A DNA stretch of 64,000 bases. It comes from Fuerstiella sp. GTDB lineage: Bacteria > Planctomycetota > Planctomycetia > Planctomycetales > Planctomycetaceae. This document shows positions 7,922 through 9,297 of this stretch, piece by piece. The first letter of the stretch is position 1; each line of letters starts with the position of its first letter. Location of the stretch: positions 62,001 to 126,000 of the forward strand of contig JAQWLN010000177.1 of NCBI GenBank assembly GCA_029247265.1, given 5' to 3'. The notes beneath the pieces are model-generated. The model searched no databases, was not told where the DNA came from, and saw only the letters and a list, made by a program, of their open reading frames with translations. A program made the position numbers and the translations under genes.

Positions 7922-8533
7922 TCATTCCCGCAGGTCGGATGACGAAATATCTTCACGGAATCGTTGTTCCGATACCCCCGAGAATAATTGGCAGAATTCC
8001 CCGGGTATTGTGAGCTCGTCGACACTGCAAAACTGCGATCTATCCCCGGATAGTCGTCCGCCAACGAAGAAGCGATTCCCGTTGTTTGACAGTGTTTGCA
8101 AAGCGTCACGGAGTTGTGTCTGGTTGTGTTGATAAAATCGAGGATCAAGAATTCTGGCAGCTGTGTCAAAACCCACGACGAACCAGCAGCCTGGGAACAG
8201 CTTCGCCTTTTCTGCGAACAGGGTACATTGGGTCACGGCAACATCGAAGGCACCAAACTGATCAAGACGAGTACGCACGTCAGATTCCGAAAGTGTCTGT
8301 TTTTCCGCATTCGTAACAGATAACTCAAAAACGACCGGCAAGTTCAATTCCTGCACAGCAACCCGTTGAAGTTGCTGGTGTCCGTGGTGCAGTGGGTTGA
8401 ACGATCCTGAAAAGATGGCAACATTCGTCAGAACTTCCAGGTGACGTGTTGTTCCTGTTCCCTCGAATAGAATCAGCGAGTCCTGATCACCGGGAAACAG
8501 CGGCTCGGACTTTTTAGGGGGGCGGCGATTCAC
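7922..8533 (-). CDS. NMNAT/cytidylyltransferase-like nucleotidyltransferase
   Basis: AIFSGSFNPLHHGHQQL (nucleotidyltransferase HxGH), ELFPG-like KLFPGCWFVVGFDTAARILDPRFY, C-terminal DISSSDLR (ISSTxIR-like). Confidence 0.82.
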   Translation of the reverse strand: MNRRPPKKSEPLFPGDQDSLILFEGTGTTRHLEVLTNVAIFSGSFNPLHHGHQQLQRVAVQELNLPVVFELSVTNAEKQTLSESDVRTRLDQFGAFDVAVTQCTLFAEKAKLFPGCWFVVGFDTAARILDPRFYQHNQTQLRDALQTLSNNGNRFFVGGRLSGDRSQFCSVDELTIPGEFCQLFSGVSEQRFREDISSSDLRE

Positions 8534-8730
8534 GTGATGTCTGAACAGTTAACGCGGCTCAATCCTGGTTCCAGCAATTGACGGGAGCAGCACCGTCATC
8601 GGCCGGTCAGAAAACCTGGGTCATGAAGAGCTTGATTCAGTCGGAAAAAAATTGACGCCGTGTCGCGTCGTCGTCGAAACGATGTTTGTTTGAGCCCGCT
8701 ACTGCCGGTCCTTACGGGAAGAAAATTGCC

Positions 8731-9297
8731 ATGGCTACGGATAACGGAAACGGGTCGCTGGATGGTAGTGCGTCTGAACTTGTCCGCATACTGACCGAAT
8801 CGGGGCAGAATATCGTCTTTGCGGAAAGTTGCACTGCCGGGTTATTATCAGCAACGCTGGGGCGAGTTCCGGGGGTTTCGAACGTGTTGGCCGGATCGGC
8901 CGTGGTGTACCAAGGCAGGACCAAGCATGCCTGGCTGCGCGTCGGCGACGACGTGCTGCGGGATCCTAGTCCCGTCAGCAAGGTAGTCAGCGAATCGATG
9001 GCTCAGGGGGTATTGGCGAATACACCACATGCTACAATCGCTGCCAGCGTCACAGGGCACCTTGGGCCAGCTGCTCCGCCGGATCTGGATGGAATAGCGT
9101 GGTCGACGGTAGCTATCCGCGAAAAGAATGGGATCTGTCTGCAATCAACCCAATTGCAGCTGGCGCCGTCGACAACCGCAGCGGCTGATGCGCAAATGGA
9201 TGACCTGACGATTCGACACGGTCGCCAACAGTCCGCTGCGAAACTGGTGCTTCAGTTTTGTTTGCAAATCATGTCGGCGTCAGGCCGTTTTTCCTGA
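8731..9297 (+). CDS. CinA C-terminal domain-like protein (NMN amidohydrolase family, divergent)
   Basis: IVFAESCTAGLLSATLGRVPGVSNVLAGSAVVYQGRTKHAWLRV matches the CinA-C AESCTGG...Y.N..K pattern. The downstream glycine-rich motif is divergent (TGHLGPAAPPDLDG). Confidence 0.82.
   Translation: MATDNGNGSLDGSASELVRILTESGQNIVFAESCTAGLLSATLGRVPGVSNVLAGSAVVYQGRTKHAWLRVGDDVLRDPSPVSKVVSESMAQGVLANTPHATIAASVTGHLGPAAPPDLDGIAWSTVAIREKNGICLQSTQLQLAPSTTAAADAQMDDLTIRHGRQQSAAKLVLQFCLQIMSASGRFS

Follow-up and report, generated by a model that had tools for sequence, protein, structure and literature searches.

What links a nucleotidyltransferase to an NMN deamidase-like protein when their genes stand head to head in a planctomycete? 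The window, that is, the whole stretch of 64,000 nucleotides analysed here, comes from a Fuerstiella-like planctomycete MAG that is 90.5% complete. A sequence-only reading of it had pointed to divergent nucleotidyltransferase (minus strand) and CinA-C (plus strand) genes at positions 7922–9297, and both reading frames lie there with the motifs that it named. PncC and NadM are the two established routes of NMN recycling; PncC converts NMN, which inhibits NAD-dependent DNA ligase, to NaMN (PMC3680494).

The window encodes a stand-alone NadD-like nucleotidyltransferase

The minus-strand gene (positions 7922–8533) starts at GTG and encodes a stand-alone nucleotidyltransferase of 203 aa, hereafter NT, from an uncharacterised NadD-like family. 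It lacks the N-terminal CinA-fold domain that precedes NT in its relatives, which we label ND. The NT reading frame carries GSFNPLHHGH, KLFPGCWFVVGFDTAARILDPRFY and DISSSDLR. GSFNPLHHGH (8378–8407, minus strand) is the nucleotide-binding HxGH motif, with the G, F, P, L, H, G and H columns invariant in 35 relatives, and DISSSDLR (7928–7951, minus strand) is an ISSTxxR-type motif near the C-terminus, whose D, S, S and R are likewise invariant. The segment FVVGFDTAARILDPRFY (8132–8182, minus strand), at the position of the GAD...W region of NadD, is specific to the family, and its F, G, D, T, R and Y are invariant in the same number of relatives.

PF01467 scored 25.4 bits against NT, just above its 21-bit cut-off, and no NCBIfam equivalog model matched above its own cut-off. 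The curated NadD model TIGR00482 reached 19.6 bits (cut-off 112.45) and the nadR model 12.5 bits (cut-off 341), and the NadM model gave no match up to an E-value of 0.1. The top structural match of the predicted NT structure was a NadD, the NaMN adenylyltransferase 1kaq, and structure comparison placed the NT fold nearer to NadD than to NMN-specific enzymes. The HxGH motif, the ISSTxxR-type motif and the fold are all NadD traits present in NT. We rejected the possibility that NT is the organism's NadD, since the real NadD is encoded elsewhere in the genome, as a separate gene that scores 166.6 bits with TIGR00482; its presence also argues against NT being merely a second NadD. We predict that NT is an ATP-dependent adenylyltransferase of NadD fold acting on NMN or its deamidated form; for the use of NMN or NaMN, we infer this from the fold, the motifs and the partner.

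The named records closest to NT by identity are from Fuerstiella sp. (79% and 75%). In the NT tree, the Fuerstiella NT clusters with NT from a different planctomycete family (f82) and not with its own family (f1), which suggests transfer or old paralogy.

The divergent neighbour belongs to a variant PncC-type subfamily

The plus-strand gene (8731–9297) encodes a PncC-type CinA-C protein of 188 aa, a member of the NMN deamidase family. Its start is more likely the ATG at 8731 than the TTG at 8686, because the two closest Fuerstiella genomes use the same start. PF02464 scored 93.8 bits against a cut-off of 23.5, which makes the protein a member of the Pfam CinA family, and it fell below all NCBIfam cut-offs. 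Catalysis by Agrobacterium CinA requires Ser31 and Lys63 (PMC5384747); its Tyr58 and Arg145 bind phosphate, and Thr105 helps orient the substrate (PMC5384747; PMC4246079). By alignment, the window protein has the catalytic Ser (S31) in AESCTAG (8821–8841, plus strand; PMC5384747), the phosphate-binding Tyr (Y58) and general-base Lys (K63) in YQGRTK (8908–8925, plus strand; PMC5384747; PMC4246079), and the phosphate-binding Arg region (R145/R377 equivalent) in RHGR (9214–9225, plus strand; PMC4246079). The Thr (T105) is retained in TGHLGPAAPPDLDG (9052–9093, plus strand), so that the Ser/Lys dyad, the phosphate-binding Tyr and Arg and the Thr are all present, as they are in the stand-alone relatives.

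The sequence-only reading had taken TGHLGPAAPPDLDG for a poorly conserved glycine motif. The ribose-binding loop there does read TGHLGPxAPxxxDG and not TGIAGPGGG, and the canonical form TGxAGPxGG is absent; what it carries instead is a subfamily signature, TG[HD]xGPxxP, which is conserved across some 35 stand-alone proteins of planctomycetes. We therefore rejected decay of the glycine loop, as this form is kept throughout the subfamily, and the non-canonical loop leads us to class the protein as PncC-type of a variant subfamily rather than as canonical PncC. It is the only CinA found in its 90.5% complete MAG, and it is predicted to hydrolyse NMN to NaMN. Many Planctomycetaceae (L227–L263) encode a full-length COG1058-CinA with a degenerate deamidase domain, in which the Tyr is replaced by Pro, the Lys is lost and TGxxGP is gone; judged by these residues, annotating such proteins as NMN deamidases would be wrong.

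Comparison of the window with its two nearest relatives indicates that both genes are under purifying selection (dN ~0.12–0.15, dS ~0.7–1.0). A common spacer of 197 bp (8534–8730), measured from the ATG at 8731, separates them, and the two genes may be regulated jointly from it. We recognised no sigma-70-like promoter in the spacer, neither its sequence nor its length is conserved among three close genomes, and a conserved promoter, of which none was found, was rejected.

The head-to-head pair persists in different gene surroundings

The NT/PncC pair stands head to head in eight genomes from four genera, five of them from the genus Fuerstiella (G000, the window genome, with G199, G200, G201 and G203) and one from each of three other genera (G223, G244 and G251). 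The adjacency claimed from the sequence thus holds in relatives, with flanks that are mostly unrelated: the pair occurs in six different gene surroundings, the flanking genes being common to G000, G199 and G200 and different in each of the other five genomes, where local synteny beyond the pair is absent save for folC near the pair of G201. In G251, the gene opposite the window-type PncC encodes a fused ND-NT. A cytidine-deaminase-like open reading frame overlaps the 3′ end of the pair's PncC gene in G203 (L123, 4630–5103).

The pair is conserved, though not universally: NT and PncC lie apart in 10 of the 18 planctomycete genomes that have both. PncC is also found in most related planctomycetes without NT, for which reason we rejected a strict dependence of PncC on NT.

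Most NT relatives are fused to a degenerate CinA-fold domain

When 199 planctomycetes were searched, most NT relatives lay in reading frames of 340–460 aa, the typical protein having about 400 aa. Of 143 NT proteins, ND is fused to 96, is encoded by the neighbouring gene for 4 and at another place in the genome for 8; for the other 35 no ND was identified, the ND search having covered only some of their genomes. NT alone occurs in eight Chloroflexia genomes that encode ND elsewhere. The fusion is present in Chloroflexota, Planctomycetota, Trueperaceae and Latescibacterota; no copies were found on plasmids, and no NCBIfam model covers it. The window NT belongs to the ND-NT family by its NT domain, with ~40% identity and the invariant residues in common.

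ND is homologous to CinA. An hhalign comparison of ND with the profile of window-type PncC gave an E-value of 3.5e-6 over 126 columns, and when a fused protein was modelled with AlphaFold (pLDDT 92.9), its first structural matches were CinA structures, with Agrobacterium CinA 2a9s at a TM-score of 0.75. An alignment of 119 ND sequences shows the Tyr and Arg in every copy and Thr/Ser in 98%; GGG/GAG stands in place of the AES motif, and the catalytic Lys has been lost. Other residues are newly conserved in ND, namely Lys/Arg105 (in all copies), His109, Arg110 and Lys130. Since ND lacks the Ser/Lys dyad and keeps the phosphate site (Tyr, Arg, Thr), its role is probably to bind or present a ligand.

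The sequence-only reading had further held that the window pair mirrors a fused plant protein. This is right insofar as NT is fused to a CinA-fold domain in most of the family; it fails insofar as the fused ND lacks Ser and Lys, the window CinA-C being complete and from another branch of the superfamily. We accordingly rejected the idea that fission of the fused ND gave rise to the window CinA-C, as ND has no Ser/Lys dyad, has its own profile and coexists with window-type PncC in G251. ND was found neither in the window genome (90.5% complete) nor in seven relatives from its genus. In one genome (G241, L155), NT has an N-terminal region of 223 residues that is a barely recognisable, decaying relic of ND, and intact PncC is present in the same genome. 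N-terminal extensions of the other ND-less NTs were also considered as ND relics and rejected, as G241 alone exceeded shuffled controls.

NT with ND and intact CinA/PncC are distributed in a complementary manner

In an evenly drawn sample of 121 Chloroflexota genomes, NT was found in 20, none of which has a CinA other than ND. CinA is present in 97 of the 101 genomes without NT, the remaining 4 having neither gene (Fisher P = 3e-19; the genomes are related and P-values carry no phylogenetic correction, so that Fisher values overstate independence). Among 81 Deinococcota genomes, 19 have NT, and CinA is absent in 11 of these and low-scoring (≤57 bits) in 8; a CinA of at least 85 bits occurs in 60 of the 62 NT-less genomes vs 0 of the 19 with NT. 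The same pattern appears in our collected set, where intact CinA is absent from 81 of 93 genomes with NT and ND, and intact PncC/CinA is present in 26 of 27 genomes with NT and without ND; here "intact" means that Tyr, Lys and Thr/Ser are present in alignments, some absences were called by score alone, and the genomes surveyed are partly MAGs. The CinA of ND-bearing planctomycete and Trueperaceae genomes is mostly degenerate at Tyr/Lys/Thr.

We conclude that ND-bearing NT and intact PncC/CinA exclude each other almost completely. Absolute exclusion was rejected, since 12 genomes carry both ND and intact CinA, 11 of them SAR202/Dehalococcoidia-like and the other G251; the single ND-less exception (G349) has NT with neither ND nor intact CinA. 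Well-supported branches of the NT tree provide only three independent contrasts, none against the rule and too few for significance. SAR202/Dehalococcoidia-like genomes (L264–L275, L283–L293) encode up to three divergent CinA paralogues besides ND-NT, with motifs such as AEACTN.../TGVTGP, or SESSCG with Lys replaced by Gln.

A possible unit of NMN recycling

An NT family that is found almost exclusively in genomes with a missing or dead PncC, and whose fused CinA fold retains its phosphate site, is explained most simply as a PncC substitute that handles NMN. We lean slightly towards a model in which NT and PncC form a functional unit of pyridine-nucleotide (NMN) recycling, ND-NT replacing PncC/CinA elsewhere. 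NMN released as a by-product of NAD-dependent DNA ligase would be hydrolysed to NaMN by PncC, and NT would transfer the adenylyl group of ATP to NMN or its deamidated form. In most NT-bearing bacteria, the partner of NT would be ND, fused or encoded elsewhere, and not PncC; ND would probably bind or present the mononucleotide instead of carrying out the classical deamidation, and NT with ND would take over from PncC/CinA in ND-bearing genomes. In the lineage of the window, where ND is absent, the partner would be the genuine PncC of a distinct subfamily that stands head to head with NT. Homology, residues, fold, adjacency and complementary distribution are observed, and the substrate, the direction of the flow and joint regulation are predictions. 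Several observations count against this model: the genome's own NadD would make a plain NaMN adenylyltransferase redundant, gene neighbourhoods in other genomes give no sign of an NAD role, NT and PncC are often apart, 12 genomes combine ND with intact CinA and G349 has NT with neither, and the independent contrasts are few.

The separate NadD would suit a reading in which ND-NT is a direct NMN adenylyltransferase (NMN + ATP -> NAD), ND senses NMN and PncC becomes dispensable; NT and PncC of the window would then offer NMN two alternative routes from either side of a common spacer and would not act in succession. Such an enzyme would explain the mutual exclusion of dead domain and active deamidase with no catalysis by ND, fits the retention of the phosphate-binding Tyr and Arg in 119 of 119 aligned ND, and has a parallel in the cyanobacterial NMNAT that recycles NMN alongside CinA (PMC13036487). 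We nevertheless regard it as rather doubtful, since the NT fold is closer to NadD than to NMN-specific enzymes, NT scores far under the NadR cut-off with no NadM match, and planctomycetes keep NT together with PncC, where an alternative route should be redundant. It is unlikely, too, that ND is itself active, hydrolysing a related or damaged pyridine nucleotide with its own residues (Cys-Thr-Ala, TxRxK[KR]GxHR, KGxRxR) and passing the product to NT, in line with the repair idea of the sequence-only reading. The strongly conserved polar residues of ND that PncC lacks (Lys/Arg105, His109, Arg110, Lys130) go beyond the needs of mere binding, and an active enzyme, PncC, apparently substitutes for ND; yet the Ser and Lys that are essential in Agrobacterium CinA (PMC5384747) are lost, and no neighbouring gene indicates a damaged substrate.

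Adjacency and complementarity might also be side effects of lineage history, with a generic CinA and an unrelated nucleotidyltransferase that occur in the same clades and have no functional link. The presence of PncC in most related planctomycetes without NT, the separation of the genes in over half of the genomes that carry both, and the small number of phylogenetic contrasts all agree with this. We consider it improbable, given that the head-to-head pair persists through six gene surroundings, that the exclusion recurs in Chloroflexota, Deinococcota and, in its ND form, Planctomycetota, and that one protein uniting NT with a CinA-fold domain is in itself direct evidence that they are linked. 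Gene neighbours raise a further alternative. Fused ND-NT lies directly upstream of a ubiD-like gene at six Chloroflexota loci (L012, L014, L023, L026, L041 and L070) and of a UbiA/MenA-type prenyltransferase gene at three (L024, L035 and L067), and a ubiX-like gene occurs within 19 of 80 loci, these names having been assigned by eye from the sequences. The ubiD-like and UbiA/MenA-type neighbours are not explained by a role in NAD metabolism, and they would favour a nucleotide-like substrate of NT outside it, for example in quinone or flavin chemistry. We judge this very improbable, as the ubi neighbours are confined to some Chloroflexota, and the exclusion of CinA and the fusion to a CinA fold would be left unexplained.

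Returning to the NMN-recycling unit, a bolder form of it, which we offer tentatively and with less than even confidence, is that ND-NT adds a third, unrecognised route to the PncC and NadM routes by which bacteria recycle NMN, one in which a defunct NMN deamidase domain steers a NadD-like adenylyltransferase. In many Chloroflexota, Trueperaceae, Latescibacterota and planctomycetes, and possibly plants as well, this route would have taken the place of CinA/PncC. The window would represent the opposite change, the dead domain having given way to a genuine deamidase from a new PncC subfamily. For those parts of several bacterial phyla in which CinA/PncC is absent or degenerate, the ND-NT family is a directly testable candidate for clearing ligase-inhibiting NMN.

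Comparison with known systems

NT resembles NadD (TIGR00482, 1kaq) in its fold, its HxGH motif and its C-terminal ISSTxxR-type motif, and differs from it by its low score and by the family-specific KARLFPGxxFVVGxDTAxR...PRYY segment. The window CinA-C shares with the C-terminal domain of PncC/CinA (PF02464; Agrobacterium CinA 2a9s, E. coli YgaD) the family match, the active-site Ser/Tyr/Lys/Thr/Arg and the stand-alone form of ~190 aa; it differs in having TGHLGPxAP for TGIAGPGGG and in standing head to head with NT. As for plants, the sequence-only reading named Arabidopsis At2g01220 as a fusion of CinA-like and nucleotidyltransferase regions, and the motifs that it gave for this protein resemble the consensus of the bacterial ND-NT fusion family; our literature search on the plant fusion found no paper naming At2g01220. 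If plants do carry the same fusion, the bacterial proteins would suggest a function for a plant protein that has none assigned. Full-length CinA (COG1058-PncC) and NadM-Nudix (PMC3680494) are like ND-NT in that an enzyme of the NMN-recycling type is fused to a second nucleotide enzyme, whereas in ND-NT it is a degenerate CinA domain that is joined to a NadD-like transferase.
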